This document shows positions 303 to 5,631 of a stretch of DNA of 45,822 bases, one piece after another. How positions within the stretch are numbered: the first letter of the stretch is position 1; the number at the start of each line of letters is the position of its first letter. Made by a program: the position numbers and the translations under genes. The stretch is from a virus: the IMG/VR virus record IMGVR_UViG_3300035670_000381, positions 1 through 45,822 of that record; one strand, 5' to 3'. Below the pieces are notes generated by a model, which was not told where the DNA came from, did no database searches, and saw nothing but the letters and a program-made list of their open reading frames with translations.

Positions 303-348
303 AATTTCCTATAAAAAGAACGACATGTCATCCCTAAAATTAGGGAAC

Positions 349-434
349 GGAAGGTGGGAGAGTCGAACTCCCAAGGGCTTTAACACCTCAACTGTTTTCA
401 AGACAGGTTCCGTCGCCAATCGGATTGACCTTCC
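349..434 (-). tRNA. tRNA-Ser (UGA)
   Basis: Class II cloverleaf with a long variable arm, anticodon loop CTTGAAA giving TGA, and T-loop GTTCGACTC. Acceptor ends GGAAGGT/ACCTTCC pair. The last 12 codons of the upstream 71-aa ORF lie inside this gene, and its stop codon TGA is the anticodon triplet. Confidence 0.93.
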
Positions 435-613
435 ATATATTGAAATTGTCCTTCGGTATTATAGAACAATTTGTGGTTTTCTGTCAATACATAGTAACCT
501 GTCAATTCCTTTCCATCATCTGTCCATCCATATGAAATAACTTTTTCATTCACCCGATCATGTTTTTTGTCCGTGTGAAGATAATGGTTATATCTTTGGT
601 GGAGATTTATCAT
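398..613 (-). CDS. Small hypothetical protein overlapping tRNA-Ser
   Basis: 71 aa. Its ATG overlaps the TAA of the upstream zinc-ribbon gene (TAATG), so translation is probably coupled. The product is polar, rich in His, Tyr and charged residues, with no signal peptide or membrane segment. The final 12 residues are encoded by the first 37 nt of tRNA-Ser, so tRNA processing would destroy this mRNA end. I do not recognise the family. The start coupling supports a real gene; the 3' overlap argues for caution. Confidence 0.5.
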   Translation of the reverse strand: MINLHQRYNHYLHTDKKHDRVNEKVISYGWTDDGKELTGYYVLTENHKLFYNTEGQFQYMEGQSDWRRNLS

Positions 614-864
614 TAGCGTACCTCAAAGTCTAGTTTACGAACTTTGCGTTTGCGTCGTTCTTCTTGATATTTTAGGTCAGCATTTGATAACATTGGTTGT
701 TTCTTAACATTCTTTTCAGAATTGATTAACACAACTTTGGATAGGTCAAGAGCAGATATTTGATCTCCTCTAACAGATGTCATGTTTGGACATCCACAAC
801 ACTTAGTTTTCGTTGGGTGAGCCTCTAACTCCTTCCCGCAGTTCTTGCATCTGATTGATAACAT
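613..864 (-). CDS. Small zinc-ribbon protein
   Basis: 83 aa. The N-terminus carries two cysteine pairs (CKNCGKE at residues 6-12 and CCGCPN at 22-27) that form a typical zinc ribbon. The C-terminal half is Lys/Arg-rich (YQEERRKRKVRK), compatible with nucleic-acid binding. An AAAGGA ribosome-binding site lies 9-14 nt before the ATG, inside the upstream ORF. It overlaps the upstream 53-aa ORF by 62 nt and is coupled to the downstream ORF by TAATG. The specific role is unknown. Confidence 0.65.
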   Translation of the reverse strand: MLSIRCKNCGKELEAHPTKTKCCGCPNMTSVRGDQISALDLSKVVLINSEKNVKKQPMLSNADLKYQEERRKRKVRKLDFEVR

Positions 865-964
865 TTTTCAGCATTCCTTTAATTTCGTCAAGTTCTTCGT
901 GAATATCTTGATGGTGGAACCGCAAAGGTCCCTGAATAAGTTTATTAAAAGTTTTCTTTTTCAT
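803..964 (-). CDS. Small coiled-coil-like hypothetical protein
   Basis: 53 aa, starting MKKKTFNKLIQG and containing a short heptad-like stretch (IHEELDEIKGMLKNVINQMQEL). It starts 17 nt after tRNA-Val and overlaps the zinc-ribbon gene by 62 nt in another frame; the coding sequence supplies the ribosome-binding site of that gene. No clear ribosome-binding site of its own is visible, which lowers confidence. Confidence 0.45.
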   Translation of the reverse strand: MKKKTFNKLIQGPLRFHHQDIHEELDEIKGMLKNVINQMQELREGVRGSPNEN

Positions 965-981
965 AGTTTGAGATGAAAAAT

Positions 982-1052
982 GGGCGATACTGGATTCGAA
1001 CCAGTGACAGCTTGCTTGTAAGGCAAGAGCTCTACCACTGAGCTAATCGCCC
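982..1052 (-). tRNA. tRNA-Val (UAC)
   Basis: Cloverleaf with anticodon stem TTGC/GCAA, loop CTTACAA (anticodon TAC), and T-loop GTTCGAATC. Acceptor GGGCGAT/ATCGCCC is perfect. The 3' end of the HNH gene overlaps the first 10 nt. Confidence 0.95.
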
Positions 1053-1321
1053 TTGGAGTGTAATATTCGATGACAATTAGAACATAAACATACACATTTA
1101 TCAATTTCTTCAACTATTCGATGAAGAGCATAACCACCTCTCACAAACTCAGAAATACCTTTGTCTTTTTGAGATGGATCCAAATGATGAAAATCCATAC
1201 ATGCTGGATGAAAGAAACCACAATGAGCGCATGGGGTCATTTTTGACATGACATAATTTTTGTTTCGCTCTCTTCTATTTTTAGAAGCAAGTTGATCTCT
1301 TATTTTTCTGGGGGTTCCCAT
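1043..1321 (-). CDS. Free-standing HNH endonuclease
   Basis: 92 aa. It carries an HNH nuclease fold: CAHCG (about residues 31-35), MDFHHLDP (about 42-49) with the catalytic His pair, and CLCSNCHRILH (about 78-88) with the second zinc pair and final His. The N-terminus is basic. It sits between tRNA-Leu and tRNA-Val and its stop lies inside tRNA-Val, as expected of a homing-type mobile gene inserted in a tRNA array. A TATAAATA late promoter and a hairpin covering the GAG ribosome-binding site lie just upstream. The target site is unknown. Confidence 0.85.
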   Translation of the reverse strand: MGTPRKIRDQLASKNRRERNKNYVMSKMTPCAHCGFFHPACMDFHHLDPSQKDKGISEFVRGGYALHRIVEEIDKCVCLCSNCHRILHSKGD

Positions 1322-1323
1322 TT

Positions 1324-1345
1324 AACTCAGTGTATTTACTGAGTT
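1324..1345 (-). promoter_or_regulatory. RBS-sequestering hairpin upstream of the HNH gene
   Basis: Perfect 8-bp stem AACTCAGT/ACTGAGTT with a 6-nt loop, ending 2 nt before the ATG. The only ribosome-binding-like sequence (GAG) is inside the 3' arm. The last two As of the late promoter box coincide with the 5' edge of the hairpin. Confidence 0.65.
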
Positions 1346-1352
1346 ATTTATA
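1345..1352 (-). promoter_or_regulatory. T4-type late promoter for the HNH gene
   Basis: Exact T4 late box TATAAATA on the minus strand, 24 nt before the HNH ATG. Initiation about 5-7 nt downstream would begin inside the 5' arm of the adjoining hairpin. Confidence 0.7.
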
Positions 1353-1369
1353 ATTATTGGTTTCCCAAA

Positions 1370-1453
1370 TGCTCCAGAGAAGATTTGAACTTCCACGCTT
1401 TTTAAGGCGGCGGATTCTAAGTCCGCTGTGTCTACCGTTCCACCACTAGAGCA
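1370..1453 (-). tRNA. tRNA-Leu (UAG)
   Basis: Class II tRNA with anticodon stem GCGGA/TCCGC, loop CTTAGAA (anticodon TAG), long variable arm, and T-loop GTTCAAATC. Acceptor TGCTCTA/TGGAGCA pairs with one wobble. Confidence 0.93.
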
Positions 1454-1509
1454 TAATTACTGGGTAATTCTACAGTATTTAGATCATCTTGTCAAGGGCA
1501 TTTGAAAGC

Positions 1510-1582
1510 GTCCTCTGTAGGATTTGAACCTACGACACATCGGTTCGTAGCCGATTGCTCTATTCCACTGAGCTAAGAGGAC
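1510..1582 (-). tRNA. tRNA-Arg (ACG)
   Basis: Anticodon stem ATCGG/CCGAT with loop CTACGAA (anticodon ACG). D and T arms are intact and acceptor GTCCTCT/AGAGGAC is perfect. Confidence 0.95.
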
Positions 1583-1585
1583 AGG

Positions 1586-1657
1586 CGAAGGGTGAGGGAT
1601 TTGAACCCCCATCGCAAGGTTTTGGAGACCTGCATCTTACCATTAGACCAACCCAAC
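1586..1657 (-). tRNA. tRNA-Trp (CCA), imperfect acceptor stem
   Basis: Anticodon loop CTCCAAA (anticodon CCA), D stem GTCT/AGAT, and T-arm GGGGG TTCAAAT CCCTC with discriminator G. The acceptor strands GTTGGGT and ACCCTTC give two adjacent T-T mismatches (positions 2-71 and 3-70), so the molecule may be partly degenerate. Confidence 0.85.
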
Positions 1658-1661
1658 AAGG

Positions 1662-1735
1662 TGTCCGTGAGAGGATTTGAACCTCCAACAAATAGATCCT
1701 TAGTCTATTGCCTCTTCCAATTGGGCTACACGGAC
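1662..1735 (-). tRNA. tRNA with class I body and AAG anticodon (identity uncertain)
   Basis: Well-formed cloverleaf: acceptor GTCCGTG/CACGGAC, anticodon stem ATAGA/TCTAT with loop CTAAGGA, and T-arm GGAGG TTCAAAT CCTCT. The anticodon reads AAG, formally leucine. The variable loop is short, whereas leucine tRNAs have a long variable arm, so the charged amino acid is uncertain. Confidence 0.85.
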
Positions 1736-1737
1736 AA

Positions 1738-1808
1738 CTGAGAAACTAGGACTCGAACCTAGATAAACTCCTTCAAAGGGAGTTGTCCTACCATTAGACG
1801 ATTTCTCA
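1738..1808 (-). tRNA. tRNA-Gln (UUG)
   Basis: Anticodon stem ACTCC/GGAGT, loop CTTTGAA (anticodon TTG), T-arm CTAGG TTCGAGT CCTAG. Acceptor TGAGAAA/TTTCTCA is perfect and the discriminator is G, as usual for glutamine tRNAs. Confidence 0.95.
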
Positions 1809-1812
1809 TTAG

Positions 1813-1888
1813 AGTTCAGGGTGGGATTTGAACCCACGGTGATAGAAGTTTTGCAGACTTCCGCATTCGACCACTCTGCCACCTGAAC
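1813..1888 (-). tRNA. tRNA-Cys (GCA)
   Basis: Anticodon loop CTGCAAA (anticodon GCA), acceptor GTTCAGG/CCTGAAC, and T-loop GTTCAAATC. The discriminator is T, the identity base expected for cysteine. Confidence 0.95.
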
Positions 1889-1890
1889 GG

Positions 1891-1962
1891 GGTGTCGTAT
1901 GGGATTTGAACCCATCTACCCAGTTTCACAAACTGGTTCCTTGACCACTAGGATAACGACAC
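1891..1962 (-). tRNA. tRNA-His (GUG)
   Basis: Anticodon stem CCAGT/ACTGG, loop TTGTGAA (anticodon GTG), acceptor GTGTCGT/ACGACAC. The discriminator is C, as expected for histidine. Confidence 0.95.
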
Positions 1963-1963
1963 A

Positions 1964-2035
1964 TAGCAGTAGGTAGATTTGAACTACCGACCATAGGCAT
2001 ATGAGACCCGTGCTCTACCACTGAGCTATACTGCT
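1964..2035 (-). tRNA. tRNA-Met (CAU), elongator or Ile2-type
   Basis: Anticodon loop CTCATAT (anticodon CAT) on a stem with two wobbles, acceptor AGCAGTA/TACTGCT, discriminator A. An isoleucine-2 type (lysidine-modified CAU) cannot be excluded from sequence alone. Confidence 0.9.
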
Positions 2036-2040
2036 AAAAT

Positions 2041-2120
2041 GGACGCTGACCTGATGGATACTCTTTCTGCGGAGGGAGGCGTCAGTCTTTTATATCCTAG
2101 CAAGCACCTTGCTGGAGTCC
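2041..2120 (-). ncRNA. Candidate structured RNA inside the tRNA array
   Basis: An 80-nt spacer between tRNA-Ser and tRNA-Met that is not a tRNA (no T-loop) and has no plausible ORF. On the minus strand its ends pair (GGAC/GTCC). Near the 5' end is a perfect hairpin AGCAAG-GTG-CTTGCT, and CTGAC/GTCAG closes a large 3' loop. Phage T4 carries two stable non-tRNA RNAs in its tRNA cluster, so this could be an analogue; a degenerate tRNA is the alternative. Confidence 0.35.
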
Positions 2121-2122
2121 AA

Positions 2123-2205
2123 CGGAAGATGTTGGGATCGAACCAACGGAGGTTTTATCCTCACGGTTTAGCAAACCGCTGCATTAACCACTCTGCCAAT
2201 CTTCC
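2123..2205 (-). tRNA. tRNA-Ser (GCU)
   Basis: Class II tRNA with anticodon loop TTGCTAA (anticodon GCT), long variable arm, and T-loop GTTCGATCC. Acceptor GGAAGAT/ATCTTCC is perfect and the discriminator is G. Confidence 0.95.
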
Positions 2206-2208
2206 ATA

Positions 2209-2280
2209 TGGAACCGACAAGATTTGAACTTGTGACCGCTCGGTTATCAGCCGAGTGCTCTACCACTGAGCTACGGTTCC
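2209..2280 (-). tRNA. tRNA-Ile (GAU)
   Basis: Anticodon stem CTCGG/CCGAG, loop CTGATAA (anticodon GAT), acceptor GGAACCG/CGGTTCC, discriminator A. Confidence 0.95.
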
Positions 2281-2284
2281 AAAG

Positions 2285-2357
2285 TGGGAATTGGTGGACT
2301 TGAACCACCCACGCAAGGTTCTTCAAACCTTCGCTCTACCAGATGAGCTAAATTCCC
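2285..2357 (-). tRNA. tRNA-Phe (GAA)
   Basis: Anticodon stem AAGGT/ACCTT, loop TTGAAGA (anticodon GAA), acceptor GGGAATT/AATTCCC, discriminator A. Confidence 0.95.
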
Positions 2358-2361
2358 AAAG

Positions 2362-2433
2362 TCCAGAAGGTTGGATTTGAACCAACGTCCTCACCGCCCC
2401 AAACGGTGCCGTCTACCACTGACTTACTCCTGG
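2362..2433 (-). tRNA. tRNA-Pro (UGG)
   Basis: Anticodon stem CACCG/CGGTG, loop TTTGGGG (anticodon TGG), acceptor CCAGGAG/CTTCTGG with one wobble, T-loop GTTCAAATC. Confidence 0.94.
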
Positions 2434-2437
2434 ATGA

Positions 2438-2509
2438 TAGTCTCAACGGGACTTGAACCCGTGTCTACACTGTGAAAGAGTGTTGTCCTAACCACTAGAC
2501 GATGAGACC
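2438..2509 (-). tRNA. tRNA-Glu (UUC)
   Basis: Anticodon stem ACACT/AGTGT, loop CTTTCAC (anticodon TTC), acceptor GGTCTCA/TGAGACT with a terminal G-T wobble. Confidence 0.94.
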
Positions 2510-2513
2510 AAAG

Positions 2514-2586
2514 CGACCCTAACGGGATTTGAACCCGTGATACCACCGTGACAGGGTGGCGTGATAGACCACTTCACTATAGGGTC
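2514..2586 (-). tRNA. tRNA-Asp (GUC)
   Basis: Anticodon stem CACC/GGTG, loop CTGTCAC (anticodon GTC), acceptor GACCCTA/TAGGGTC, discriminator G as expected for aspartate. Confidence 0.95.
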
Positions 2587-2590
2587 AAGG

Positions 2591-2681
2591 TGAGAGAGGA
2601 GGGAATTGAACCCCCGATGGTTCTTATGTAACGGTTTTACAGACCGCAGCCACACGTATTGCCAACAGTAGCCACTCTCTC
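2591..2681 (-). tRNA. tRNA-Tyr (GUA), enlarged D arm
   Basis: Anticodon stem GCGGT/ACCGT, loop CTGTAAA (anticodon GTA), class II variable arm, T-arm GGGGG TTCAATT CCCTC, acceptor GAGAGAG/CTCTCTC, discriminator A. The D-arm region is about 24 nt, several bases longer than usual. Confidence 0.88.
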
Positions 2682-2684
2682 ATA

Positions 2685-2757
2685 TGGGTTTGGTCGGGGT
2701 CGAACCGACGACTTACAGGTTAAAAGCCCGCTACTCTACCAACTGAGTTACAAACCC
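2685..2757 (-). tRNA. tRNA-Lys (UUU)
   Basis: Anticodon loop CTTTTAA (anticodon TTT), acceptor GGGTTTG/CAAACCC, T-arm GTCGG TTCGACC CCGAC. It is the first tRNA of the main array in the direction of transcription. A TTGACA hexamer lies about 20 nt upstream but its -10 box is poor. Confidence 0.95.
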
Positions 2758-2878
2758 AAATAATGTGATAAATATTCAGTTGTCAAGGTGCTGGTGGTCT
2801 CTCGACCACTTGATTAGAATACCACCGTTTGGTCTCTGGGGAGGGACTGGTGGACACTTGAAGGACCGTCACAAGCAA
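2758..2878. other. Gene-free spacer with paired elements
   Basis: No convincing ORF. On the minus strand there is a perfect GTGGTC-GAGA-GACCAC hairpin (2801-2816 region) and a longer CCACC/GGTGG pairing just upstream, followed by TTGACA about 20 nt before tRNA-Lys. The stretch may be a leader or processing region for the tRNA transcript. Confidence 0.4.
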
Positions 2879-2913
2879 CAAAAAAGGGGAGGAAACTTTT
2901 GGTTTCTCTCCCC
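2879..2913 (-). terminator. Intrinsic terminator before the main tRNA array
   Basis: On the minus strand, GGGGAGAGAAAC and GTTTCCTCCCC pair around a CAAAA-type loop (stem 2886-2913) and are followed by TTTTTTG. It ends the small late gene at 2940-3038. Confidence 0.8.
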
Positions 2914-2939
2914 GTTCTTTTGCTTTTATGGATTACATC

Positions 2940-3038
2940 TTACATATGCTTATCCATATCCGCAAACAGGGGAGATCCCTCAATATGCCAATAGCGGCAA
3001 TCGAGAATACTAAACTGTTTGGGCATTGGATAAGACAT
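2940..3038 (-). CDS. Tiny late gene, 32-aa product
   Basis: 32 aa, beginning MSYPMPKQFSILDCRYWH and ending ADMDKHM. An exact TATAAATA late promoter lies 23 nt before the ATG, AAAGG lies 11 nt before it, and an intrinsic terminator starts about 27 nt after the stop, so the unit is a complete monocistronic late transcript. The product is soluble, aromatic-rich and unrecognised. It sits between tRNA-Arg (TCT) and tRNA-Lys. Confidence 0.6.
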   Translation of the reverse strand: MSYPMPKQFSILDCRYWHIEGSPLFADMDKHM

Positions 3039-3060
3039 TGTTTTCGACCTTTAATGTGTT

Positions 3061-3068
3061 TATTTATA
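3061..3068 (-). promoter_or_regulatory. T4-type late promoter for the 32-aa gene
   Basis: Exact TATAAATA on the minus strand, 23 nt before the ATG at 3038. Confidence 0.7.
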
Positions 3069-3087
3069 AGAGTTTTTGAAAACTCAA

Positions 3088-3160
3088 CGCCTCAGGTTGG
3101 ATTCGAACCAACGGCTAACCGCTTAGAAGGCGGATACTCTGTCCCCTGAGTTACTGAGGC
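3088..3160 (-). tRNA. tRNA-Arg (UCU)
   Basis: Anticodon stem TCCGC/GCGGT, loop CTTCTAA (anticodon TCT), acceptor GCCTCAG/CTGAGGC, discriminator G. It is separated from the main array by the 32-aa gene. Confidence 0.95.
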
Positions 3161-3174
3161 ATGTAGATAGTATA

Positions 3175-3573
3175 TCAGTGTTTGGGGCAAGTGTCAATCC
3201 ACGGAGAGCACAACCTGATTTCCCCTCCCAGTGATCGACACTCATCAGTATAGCACACAGAGGTGTCCACTGGTTTTTCTGAGTATCTTGGAGATGGTAT
3301 TTTAACAGTTCCATCGTCTCCTGTCAATCGTTCATAATCTCTGATCGCTTTATCAACAGTTCTCTTTACTTTGCGTTCTATGATACCAGGATCTTTCTGT
3401 AGTTCTGGTATCAAAGGTGAATCTGGTTGATACTTTACTAATGCTTCGTAAATTATATCCCAGATATGTTTATCCTCTATCTTGAGGCAAGATGAGAGTG
3501 ATGCTACAACTAATGTAAGTATTAGTATTGTTTTTATAGATGTTTTCTTTTTACCAAAATTAAAATTAAACAT
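3175..3573 (-). CDS. Putative secreted lipoprotein, cyanophage conserved type
   Basis: 132 aa. A basic N-terminus (NFGKKK) is followed by a hydrophobic segment (TILILTLVVASLSSC) that ends in a lipobox-like LSSC around residue 29, suggesting a lipoprotein or an anchored periplasmic protein. The rest is charged and has three more cysteines near the C-terminus (VCYTDEC, LCSPWIDTC). It follows the RlpA-like gene in a cell-wall cluster, so a role in lysis (for example an outer-membrane spanin) is possible but unproven. The ATG lies in the T-tract of the upstream hairpin and no ribosome-binding site is obvious. Confidence 0.75.
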   Translation of the reverse strand: MFNFNFGKKKTSIKTILILTLVVASLSSCLKIEDKHIWDIIYEALVKYQPDSPLIPELQKDPGIIERKVKRTVDKAIRDYERLTGDDGTVKIPSPRYSEKPVDTSVCYTDECRSLGGEIRLCSPWIDTCPKH

Positions 3574-3630: not shown

Positions 3631-3993
3631 TCAGATCCTACTATAGCATACAGTTGTCACACCTTGCCCTGGGTGAGCAATAGAAGAGAACGCACCATAA
3701 GACAGGTCAAGATCCCTATCTCCAACATAGGGTCCGCGATCATTTACACGCACAATTACAGATCTACCATTTCGTTGATTCGTAACTCGTAATCTGGTTC
3801 CGAATGGAAGCCATCTGTGTGCTACCGATTTACCGTATGCGTTATACTTTTCGCCATTAGCAGTTGTTTGCCCATGATATCCATCACCAATTCCATAATG
3901 TGAAGCGAGGGAACATCCGCTCGCTGCCTTTGCTGTTACGGGTGCCAATCCGACGAGACCAAAGGCAAGAATTGAAAGTGTTTTAAGAAGCAT
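3631..3993 (-). CDS. RlpA-like secreted double-psi beta-barrel protein
   Basis: 120 aa from ATG at 3993; an upstream TTG at 4020 would only extend the signal peptide. The N-terminus is a clear signal peptide (MLLKTLSILAFGLVGL, with APVTAKA before the likely cut). The mature part is an RlpA-type barrel: ASHYG, TTANGEKY, AHRWLPFGTRLRV and VRVNDRGPY, which holds the conserved Asp, then DLDLSYGAF. RlpA proteins bind or cleave peptidoglycan glycan strands. It lies beside the lysozyme and peptidase genes, so action on the host cell wall is likely. A consensus sigma-70 promoter is located upstream. Confidence 0.85.
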   Translation of the reverse strand: MLLKTLSILAFGLVGLAPVTAKAASGCSLASHYGIGDGYHGQTTANGEKYNAYGKSVAHRWLPFGTRLRVTNQRNGRSVIVRVNDRGPYVGDRDLDLSYGAFSSIAHPGQGVTTVCYSRI

Positions 3994-4126
3994 TAATTTA
4001 CATTGAACTCTACATCCCAATAGAGAAAGCGCACTTCCCCCTTCTCAAGGGGCAATCTCCTGGGCTCTAATTGTCACTCACTCTCTCATTATGAGAAAAC
4101 CCGCCGAATTTGACGGGTATGAAATC

Positions 4127-4190: not shown

Positions 4191-4430
4191 ATGAAACTCA
4201 ATCTAAATAAGCTCATTTTTATCGTATGCGTATCAGCAGTTGGATTTGTTGGTCTCAACTTTGTTGCCTGTAACTTCATGATACCAGGATCTATTATTAG
4301 TGCTAATGTATTAGGTGGATTAAAAAATCCTCCTCCCCTGGATTGTAAAGAATCCGAGAGAAGAGGATATGAAACTTTATTGGCAATTCTAACTACTGTG
4401 ATTGCTCTAAGAACTAAAGTAGAAGATTAA
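4191..4430 (+). CDS. Small membrane protein on the opposite strand
   Basis: 79 aa with a GAGG ribosome-binding site 8 nt upstream of the ATG. One N-terminal hydrophobic segment (LIFIVCVSAVGFVGLNFVAC, residues 8-27) could be a signal or membrane anchor ending in a lipobox-like VAC. A second apolar helix lies near the C-terminus (YETLLAILTTVIAL). It is the only credible plus-strand gene in the window and converges on the lysozyme reading frame with a 4-nt overlap of stop codons. Lying among cell-wall genes, it may be a holin or lysis accessory; this is inference only. Confidence 0.65.
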   Translation: MKLNLNKLIFIVCVSAVGFVGLNFVACNFMIPGSIISANVLGGLKNPPPLDCKESERRGYETLLAILTTVIALRTKVED

Positions 4431-4921
4431 GAAACCCAGAGTTTGCCTTCTGCTTTTCTTCTTCTAAGTAATCCTGCTTCAACACTACTACCAGGATTAC
4501 GATACATCTCTAATACTTTTGGTACATCATTCCATTTGTGATCTTTGAGTATTCTTGAGATCGTGTCAAACCCAGGACTGTTAAAAAAGTTAGCCCCGAG
4601 ATTGTAAGCAAAAGATAATAATGCTCCACGCTGGTTTTCATTCATCTCTCCCCAATACGGTATTTTTGCGAGTGTTGGAATGTATTCTTTTTTAATTTGA
4701 GAGATTAGCAGATCATCAGCAACTTTTTGGGAAATCTTTTGACCGAGTTTAAATGGTTTTCCATTGAAATCTCTGGTACTTCCCCATCCTATAGTAATAG
4801 GTAATCCGCCAGTACGAGGGTCTGGATAAGCAGTTAATTCACAACCCTCAAATTCTTTAATGAGTTCTACTCCTTTTACGGGTAAAGTGTATTTACCTGT
4901 AAAAGGAGTAGAACTTGTTAC
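4427..4921 (-). CDS. GH24 lysozyme domain, expressed by -1 frameshift from the upstream peptidase gene
   Basis: This 164-codon open frame encodes a full phage-type lysozyme. It has EFEGCELTAYPDP with the catalytic Glu and, nine residues on, Asp; then TIGWGST with the conserved Thr; and a C-terminal half MNENQRGALLSFAYNLG...LLRRRKAEGKLW typical of GH24 enzymes that cut the MurNAc-GlcNAc bond. The first ATG (4645) lies after the catalytic residues, and the 92 codons before it contain no ATG, GTG or TTG. The frame is exactly -1 relative to the peptidase ORF at its A AAA AAG heptamer, so it is predicted to be made only as the C-terminal part of a 401-aa fusion. Confidence 0.85.
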   Translation of the reverse strand, partial: VTSSTPFTGKYTLPVKGVELIKEFEGCELTAYPDPRTGGLPITIGWGSTRDFNGKPFKLGQKISQKVADDLLISQIKKEYIPTLAKIPYWGEMNENQRGALLSFAYNLGANFFNSPGFDTISRILKDHKWNDVPKVLEMYRNPGSSVEAGLLRRRKAEGKLWVS

Positions 4922-4942
4922 TTTTTTGCGTTAAAAATCCTT
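4863..4942 (-). promoter_or_regulatory. Programmed -1 ribosomal frameshift signal
   Basis: Three elements in dnaX-like order on the minus strand. A Shine-Dalgarno-like AAGGA lies at 4942-4938. The heptamer A AAA AAG is at 4927-4921, ten nt later, in phase with the peptidase codons GCA AAA AAG TAA. After a 5-nt spacer (4920-4916) comes a stem of 17 perfect base pairs (4915-4899 with 4879-4863), which contains a further 6-bp inner stem (GGTAAA/TTTACC) and a 5-nt loop. Slippage of both tRNAs by one base makes the next codon GTA, in the lysozyme frame. Confidence 0.85.
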
Positions 4943-5631
4943 CCCCATCCATCGTTACCCTTAGGGCACCATCTACGAGCAAGATCAGACTTTTTATATA
5001 CAGCACCCTTGCCATTGGTTACAGCACCAGTGTATCCATCATTTAGTGAACCATATGGATCATTCACCACATAATCACCAGAAGGTGTCTTACCAATCAC
5101 TACACACATGTGCCCACCAGTAGGAGCAGATAAAGAACCCCTGTGGAGAATACCAATAACAACGGGTCTGTTAGCAGCAAGCTCACGATCAAGGTCATTG
5201 AAAGTAAGACTATAGCTAAACTGTGACTGAATACCATAAGACGCCAGAGCACGGGTTTGAACCAAGTGATCTGTCGTATCACCGATTGAGAATACTTTTT
5301 GAACATAAGCATCATCACCTTTTGCTCCTTTTAAAGTACCAGGCTTGAAGTATTCAAGTACCATAGCACAAGCAGAAGAATTACAGGTTCTATCAGCATC
5401 TCTATAGTTGTCTGTCTGAGGAAAGAAAGGAACATCAAGAATTGATGATCTTGGTTTGTCTGGTTGTGATCTAAAAATTCTCACCCAGTTTGCTGTATCT
5501 TCCATTTCTTCTGGCACTTTTTTGTCAAGCGTCTTTTCCAGTTCTTCTACAGCAGCGCGATGTTTTGGGTTATTTTCATCGTAGTGTTTAAAAAAATTGT
5601 GAAGGTCAATCTTGGGCATTGGGTTCTCCAT
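4918..5631 (-). CDS. C39-like cysteine peptidase, frameshift parent of the lysozyme fusion
   Basis: 237 aa. Residues 1-65 are a charged, helical N-terminal region. A papain-like C39-type domain follows: TCNSSACAMVLEYF (about residues 85-98) with the candidate catalytic Cys, GGHMCVVIG (about 175-183) with His, and VNDPYG with Asp. It could cleave peptide cross-links in peptidoglycan or process proteins. The ORF overlaps the nuclease gene by 26 nt, and Met5 (5619) is an alternative start. The last codons GCA AAA AAG form a slippery site before TAA, so some ribosomes should continue into the lysozyme frame. Confidence 0.85.
   Translation of the reverse strand: MENPMPKIDLHNFFKHYDENNPKHRAAVEELEKTLDKKVPEEMEDTANWVRIFRSQPDKPRSSILDVPFFPQTDNYRDADRTCNSSACAMVLEYFKPGTLKGAKGDDAYVQKVFSIGDTTDHLVQTRALASYGIQSQFSYSLTFNDLDRELAANRPVVIGILHRGSLSAPTGGHMCVVIGKTPSGDYVVNDPYGSLNDGYTGAVTNGKGAVYKKSDLARRWCPKGNDGWGRIFNAKK

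Follow-up and report, generated by a model that had tools for sequence, protein, structure and literature searches.

A large group of viruses of picocyanobacteria, the model phage S-PM2 among them, appear to join a peptidase to a lysozyme by a programmed slip of one base. The gene pair was analyzed in IMG/VR virus record IMGVR_UViG_3300035670_000381, whose 45,822 nucleotides are called the window here, and in its relatives, more than 80 distinct ones of which keep the slippery sequence and the RNA hairpin. The best explanation, in which we place high confidence, is that slippage on the heptamer A AAA AAG, aided by the hairpin, yields both the peptidase and a peptidase-lysozyme fusion. This explanation was reached by comparing sequences, without protein, ribosome-profiling or reporter data.

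A portion of the ribosomes translating the peptidase gene would shift back by one base at A AAA AAG, and the hairpin just 3' of the heptamer would promote the slip. Ribosomes that do not slip would end at the adjoining stop and release a 237-aa C39-like peptidase, and slipping ribosomes would pass through the hairpin in the -1 frame to give a 401-aa peptidase-lysozyme fusion, a putative bifunctional endolysin that carries the peptidase's N-terminal helical module. Slippage in infected cells, its efficiency and the part of both products in lysis of the cyanobacterial wall are inferred. The features of the window are as follows.

4918-5631, minus strand: frame-0 ORF of the C39-like cysteine peptidase, 237 aa (PF13529, phrog_10051, invariant columns, AlphaFold2, Foldseek)
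4921-4927, minus strand: A AAA AAG, slippery heptamer in phase with frame 0; conserved in relatives
4918-4920, minus strand: frame-0 stop TAA, directly 3' of the heptamer
4427-4930, minus strand: -1-frame lysozyme ORF (PF00959, frame limits, dN/dS in relatives)
4427-5631, minus strand: predicted frameshift product, a 401-aa peptidase-lysozyme fusion, inferred; homologous single-frame fusion in ACG-2014f (L006:1296-2513)
4863-4915, minus strand: putative stimulatory hairpin with a 17-bp stem (4915-4899 with 4879-4863), an inner 6-bp stem (4897-4892 with 4886-4881) and a 5-nt loop (folding, arm swap, pair counts)
4938-4942, minus strand: AAGGA, Shine-Dalgarno-like, 10 nt 5' of the heptamer; seen in the window, not conserved
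2684-2758, minus strand: phage-encoded tRNA-Lys, anticodon TTT (ARAGORN)

Slippery heptamer and reading frame at the junction

The peptidase ORF of the window ends with the codons GCA AAA AAG TAA. The lysozyme frame, with a TAA just before it, is open only from CGC AAA AAA GTA (4930), and the two frames overlap essentially at the heptamer only. Reading after the shift begins at GTA (4921-4919) and continues for 164 codons to the stop at 4429-4427. The first Met of the lysozyme frame is codon 93, which lies 3' of the catalytic Glu, and ATG, GTG and TTG are absent before this Glu. When the window was re-read, the coordinates, heptamer, hairpin and product lengths (237 and 401 aa) given in a preliminary description proved right base for base, and the frame limits bore out its claim of a start-less lysozyme with the first Met beyond the catalytic Glu.

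Four IMG/VR scans together with isolates provided 152 distinct loci after duplicates were removed, 95 of which have an overlapping lysozyme in the -1 frame. An in-phase X XXY YYZ heptamer is kept in 85 of the 95 (81 A AAA AAG, 3 T TTT TTT and 1 A AAA AAA). At all 10 loci without it, an ATG or GTG overlaps the peptidase stop, and 9 of these 10 have an additional N-terminal module ahead of the lysozyme. The 40 control peptidases, which have no lysozyme, a separate or preceding one, or one with its own module, all lack the heptamer. Cross-tabulation of the heptamer with an adjacent -1 lysozyme without its own module gave 85 loci with both, 1 with the lysozyme only, none with the heptamer only and 40 with neither (Fisher p 3e-32), and all nine phylogenetically independent contrasts on well-supported branches agreed with the association. 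Of the peptidases with an overlapping -1 lysozyme, 81 of 95 have an in-phase A AAA AAG within the last three codons; among 488 ends of other ORFs at these loci, one does. The codon ahead of the Lys pair can stand for Ala, Val, Thr or Glu, always with A as its final base; the pair itself is AAA AAG in 81 of 82 cases, though AAG makes up only 36% of Lys codons.

The linkers between the heptamer and the lysozyme motif LIKEFEG occur in 12 lengths, from 10 to 23 codons, and all consist of whole codons in the -1 frame. That frame has no stop in the linker at any of the 85 loci, compared with 77 of 85 for the +1 frame; 12 whole-codon lengths without a -1 stop are not expected from a downstream restart. 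In a gap-free alignment of 64 loci without their own start, the lysozyme stretch ahead of the window's first Met had a median dN/dS of 0.088 (62 codons, 520 pairs), and third positions held 56% of the differences. Past the heptamer, the -1 frame stays open and leads into a conserved domain that is under purifying selection.

Downstream hairpin and Shine-Dalgarno-like element

The 17-bp stem of the window is perfect and begins 5 nt past the heptamer. The fold of the surrounding 106 nt has an energy of -34.9 kcal/mol (z = -5.8), which none of 200 shuffles equalled, and a fold directly 3' of the heptamer was present in 84 of the 85 loci, with a median z of -3.9 and z < -2 in 71. The arms vary between groups (AATCAACACCACA/TGTGGTGTTGATT, GCCAACTAA/TTAGTTGGC, CTCTACTCC/GGAGTAGAG and others), and each arm matches its own partner. 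Across the 85 loci, the mean duplex energy was -15.1 kcal/mol for own arms versus -7.5 kcal/mol for permuted partners (z -16.7; 0 of 5000 permutations as good). In one hairpin family of 20 sequences, 98.6% of the pair cells hold standard pairs and four pairs have changed on both sides. When the partner was slid by 1-3 columns, pairing fell to 30-48%. The window's own hairpin family has changes on both sides at eight pairs. Shuffles and permutations leave the relatedness of the loci in place, so the case for the hairpin relies on three results together: the swapped arms, the slid partner and the variety of arm sequences.

A subclade with an ATGA overlap has only weak hairpins of 5-8 bp, and S-SRM01 has none; separate initiation may have replaced frameshifting there. 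The core claim of the preliminary description, that a -1 programmed frameshift joins the peptidase to the lysozyme, is supported by the heptamer, the frame, hairpin covariation and the natural controls, and a check across related phages found that most keep the heptamer, the stem pairing and the frame. The comparison shows, as far as comparison of loci can, that these elements are under selection and are found where the lysozyme must be reached from the peptidase.

In E. coli dnaX, the heptamer A AAA AAG, a downstream stem-loop and an upstream Shine-Dalgarno sequence accompany a -1 shift that makes the short product. All three elements had been reported for the window. The heptamer and the hairpin are indeed conserved, but AAGGA upstream of the heptamer was found in 1 of 85 loci, the window itself, and the polarity is opposite to that of E. 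coli. Pairing to the anti-Shine-Dalgarno across the 85 loci equalled the expectation from synonymous codons (mean p 0.50). Since AAGGA is peculiar to the window contig, conservation extends to two of the three dnaX elements.

The phage tRNA-Lys(TTT) would decode both the AAA and the AAG of the heptamer; a link to frameshifting is possible and has not been shown. It belongs to a cluster of 19 tRNA genes at 347-3161 (minus strand). An Rfam match to tRNA-Sec at 349-434 in this cluster is borderline (47.4 vs 47 bits), and ARAGORN calls tRNA-Ser(TGA).

Isolates, natural variants and alternative explanations

The closest isolates in a tblastn search of phage records are Synechococcus myoviruses of the Kyanoviridae. 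In S-PM2 the junction reads GCA AAA AAG TAA CC, and the lysozyme again lies in the -1 frame; the six As are present in two separate records of this cultured phage. Its hairpin (AGCTCTACT/AGTAGAGCT) differs from that of the window (AGTTCTACT/AGTAGAACT) by compensatory change. S-CAM7 has no A-run; its junction, GTT TTT TTT CCA CAG TAG, contains a T TTT TTT heptamer, again with the lysozyme in the -1 frame and with a hairpin 5 nt downstream that is unrelated in sequence. The deposited lysin of S-PM2 (S-PM2p154, L003:2274-2492) begins at an internal codon and has 72 aa, and that of S-CAM7 is likewise a 72-aa fragment (CC030809_00215, L005:2268-2486). These lysins, which start past the catalytic Glu, are artefacts of an overlooked frameshift, and phrog_10457 (95 aa) seems to be a collection of such truncated lysins. 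A systematic annotation error is exposed, as the joined product is absent from existing annotation.

Other relatives arrange the two domains differently. ACG-2014f encodes the entire fusion in frame 0 and retains GCA AAA AAG TCT GAG followed by GGAGGG..CCCTCC, so that a -1 shift would stop after one codon. Loci L118-L120 are similar: their single-frame fusions retain A AAA AAG, with a -1 stop directly behind it and a hairpin rich in GC. For these loci and ACG-2014f, a frameshift of E. coli dnaX polarity is predicted. Seven As with an in-frame fusion occur in two lineages (L146; L153 and three further contigs), with the hairpin retained. In the seven-A lineages and ACG-2014f the fusion would be the default and the peptidase alone the product of slipping. 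S-SRM01 keeps A AAA AAG together with an ATGA overlap with the lysozyme start, S-CREM1 has both domains in one ORF in reverse order, and DSL-LC02 and DSL-LC03 have separate genes for peptidase and lysozyme. Seven As and a lysozyme with its own start, which the preliminary description had named as refuting it, are indeed present in certain lineages; these are variants within a family that otherwise keeps the signal.

Termination-reinitiation, an improbable alternative in our judgement, would restart translation in the lysozyme frame at a nearby start and give two separate enzymes with no fusion. Such starts exist: ATG, GTG or TTG overlaps the stop at 15 of the 85 heptamer loci (the S-SRM01 type), the 10 heptamer-less loci use an overlapping start, and a few other loci have GTG or TTG inside the linker. 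However, a start at the stop is missing from 70 of the 85, and in many loci, the window and S-PM2 among them, no start precedes the catalytic Glu. A restart would need neither the whole-codon linkers nor an exact A AAA AAG. At the 15 loci with an overlapping start, the lysozyme may also be produced alone. Transcriptional slippage, where RNA polymerase would gain or lose an A (or U) in the run and so make single-frame mRNAs, could draw on the homopolymers (A6, and T8 in S-CAM7) and on the in-frame fusions of the seven-A variants. Bacterial slippage of this kind is described at runs of about nine (PMC5009743), against which A6 is short. It would also leave unexplained the in-phase G past A6 and the covarying hairpin at a fixed place, and we regard it as very unlikely.

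The remaining two alternatives have, in our estimate, almost no chance of being right. Homopolymers are prone to sequencing and assembly error, and a true gene with seven As would be one plain fusion, as in the in-frame relatives with seven As. This possibility is already contradicted: 81 of the 95 distinct loci, which come from many metagenomes, have six As, and so do the two separate S-PM2 records. S-CAM7 would need a different correction, and an error would be expected neither to be tied to the hairpin nor to be absent from the 40 control peptidases. It could also be supposed that the strong stem at the end of the peptidase ORF terminates its transcript and that the lysozyme is an untranslated, decaying remnant, for which the mere 72-aa fragment in the S-PM2 annotation might be cited. 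The hairpin lies within -1 coding sequence with no T-run behind it, however, and the lysozyme frame is intact everywhere, with the low dN/dS given above. Programmed frameshifting at the heptamer remains our preferred reading.

Domains of the putative endolysin, known systems and evolution

The window peptidase matched PF13529 (E 1.8e-12) and phrog_10051, annotated as endolysin (E 5.8e-90). C83, H174 and D191 are invariant in 40 sequences and probably form the catalytic triad. In an AlphaFold2 model (pLDDT 83), residues from about 8 to 55 form a helical N-terminal module, and the C39 domain is papain-like. Foldseek matched the model to 3erv, 6mpz and 2bu3, with a best TM of about 0.5-0.7 on the target; the matches comprise a C39-like peptidase (3erv), PCAT and ComA peptidase domains, and phytochelatin synthase. 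Searches of PDB sequences with the peptidase, as a single sequence and as a profile, gave no match, and only the fold comparison did. The lysozyme frame matched PF00959 (E 8.7e-22), hence the label GH24, and by eye its FEG...AYPDP...TIGWG presumably corresponds to E11/D20/T26 of T4 lysozyme. The AlphaFold2 model of the homologous single-frame fusion L153 was poor (pLDDT 66, pTM 0.39) and was left unused.

A module of about 45 residues (FFKYY..H..A...L...W...YR) recurs in cyanophage wall hydrolases, at the N-terminus of C39 peptidases and of lysozymes and also between domains. Examples are residues 8-55 of the window ORF 4918-5631, L008:1806-2477, L037:3187-3801, L257:1210-2508 and L258:760-1866. 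The N-terminal helical module had no Pfam match; the 45-residue module is possibly a targeting module. The stand-alone lysozyme of DSL-LC02 is headed by the same N-terminal module (phrog_10051 positions 223-270, E 2.7e-9), and lysozymes with their own start are headed by a module that is similar by eye. The lysozyme is often paired with such a module, taken either from its own gene or, via the frameshift, from the peptidase. From the shared module and the single-frame C39-glycosidase fusions of other cyanophages, a bifunctional endolysin is inferred. Its function in lysis of the host wall has not been shown and rests only on domain content and the PHROG "endolysin" matches.

Several neighbouring or related genes were also noted. 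A 79-aa ORF resembling a membrane protein lies at 4191-4430 (plus strand), convergent with the lysozyme; it matched no PHROG or Pfam family. A homologue occupies the same convergent downstream place at 61 of 95 -1 lysozyme loci versus 1 of 22 loci without lysozyme, and the ORF is a candidate holin or other lysis partner. Two minus-strand genes lie next to the endolysin. The product of the one at 3175-3573 is small, carries a lipobox-like LSSC and matches phrog_3316 (unknown function); the one at 3631-4020 encodes an RlpA-like DPBB protein (PF03330), and the RlpA-like gene recurs downstream in many relatives. In S-CRM01 (genes 113c/112c, L012:1821-3130), the lysozyme's C-terminal part runs on into the following ORF, which is in a different frame, and for this a frameshift, a restart and a sequencing error are alternatives. 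In S-CBP4, a break in frame within the C39 domain has left the C39-glucosaminidase gene (L256, about 1200-2140) unannotated; in DSL-LC07 the gene is intact.

In dsDNA phages, tail-assembly chaperones such as lambda gpG/gpGT, made by a -1 frameshift, are the main known case of programmed frameshifting. As in gpG/gpGT, a phage gene product gains a C-terminal domain from the -1 frame, entered close to the end of the first ORF, but the lambda products are chaperones and those of the cyanophages carry two enzyme domains, and no sequence relation was seen. The cyanophage cassette resembles E. coli dnaX in its in-phase A AAA AAG, in the stem-loop that follows within a few nt and in its two predicted products with a common N-terminus. 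It differs in having no conserved Shine-Dalgarno stimulator and in that slipping leads to the long product in the window and most relatives; moreover, dnaX encodes a DNA polymerase subunit and the cyanophage gene a wall hydrolase. The reverse of the dnaX polarity has been reported in a few bacteria, and Halothiobacillus csoS2 has a stem-loop-stimulated frameshift likewise without a Shine-Dalgarno stimulator, although in an unrelated gene for a carboxysome protein (PMC5009743).

Among endolysins, mycobacteriophage LysA similarly has an N-terminal peptidase, in some cases C39-like, followed by an amidase or glycosidase, and Ms6 LysA makes two products from one gene (PMC3314691). LysA is nevertheless a single ORF, and Ms6 makes its embedded second product by internal initiation instead of by frameshifting (PMC3314691). 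ACG-2014f (C39-lysozyme), DSL-LC07 (C39-glucosaminidase), and S-B68 and MA10 (C39-GH19-like) join the same C39-like family to a wall glycosidase, but in one continuous frame that needs no frameshift. In Alteromonas virus vB_AspP-H4/4, a putative slippery sequence was noted for the overlapping genes 39/40, a pair that includes an endolysin gene (PMC5658483). That virus is a podovirus, however, the -1 product is said to be an internal virion protein, and the single sentence on it gives no hairpin or comparative evidence (PMC5658483). No report of a peptidase-lysozyme frameshift was found in the open-licence PMC literature searched, and a review of recoding, in the part of its text that was available, mentions neither endolysin nor lysozyme. 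We judge the present case to be a known mechanism in a new use, a frameshift-made bifunctional endolysin.

In a tree of 146 peptidases, many inner branches of which are weak, the T TTT TTT type is a single supported clade that lies among single-frame fusions; the A AAA AAG type falls in a different clade, also supported. At least 33 state changes occur on this tree. The simplest reading of these placements would be two origins of the frameshift with repeated loss, gain and module exchange. More tentatively, and with real doubt whether all its parts hold together, a recoding switch may set the ratio of peptidase to bifunctional fusion. Such a switch would have had two or more origins (A AAA AAG and T TTT TTT, whose hairpins are unrelated). 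It would have been reversed in polarity in ACG-2014f and the seven-A lineages, where the fusion would be the default, and would have disappeared where the lysozyme acquired an N-terminal module of its own; the phage tRNA-Lys(UUU) could alter the ratio during infection. Relatives with a single-frame fusion, seven As or an own start offer a natural experiment on the need for both products. A conserved frameshift in a wall-degrading enzyme pair would be a new site for recoding and a new route to an endolysin with two activities, and its occurrence in marine and freshwater cyanophages, including S-PM2, makes it directly testable.
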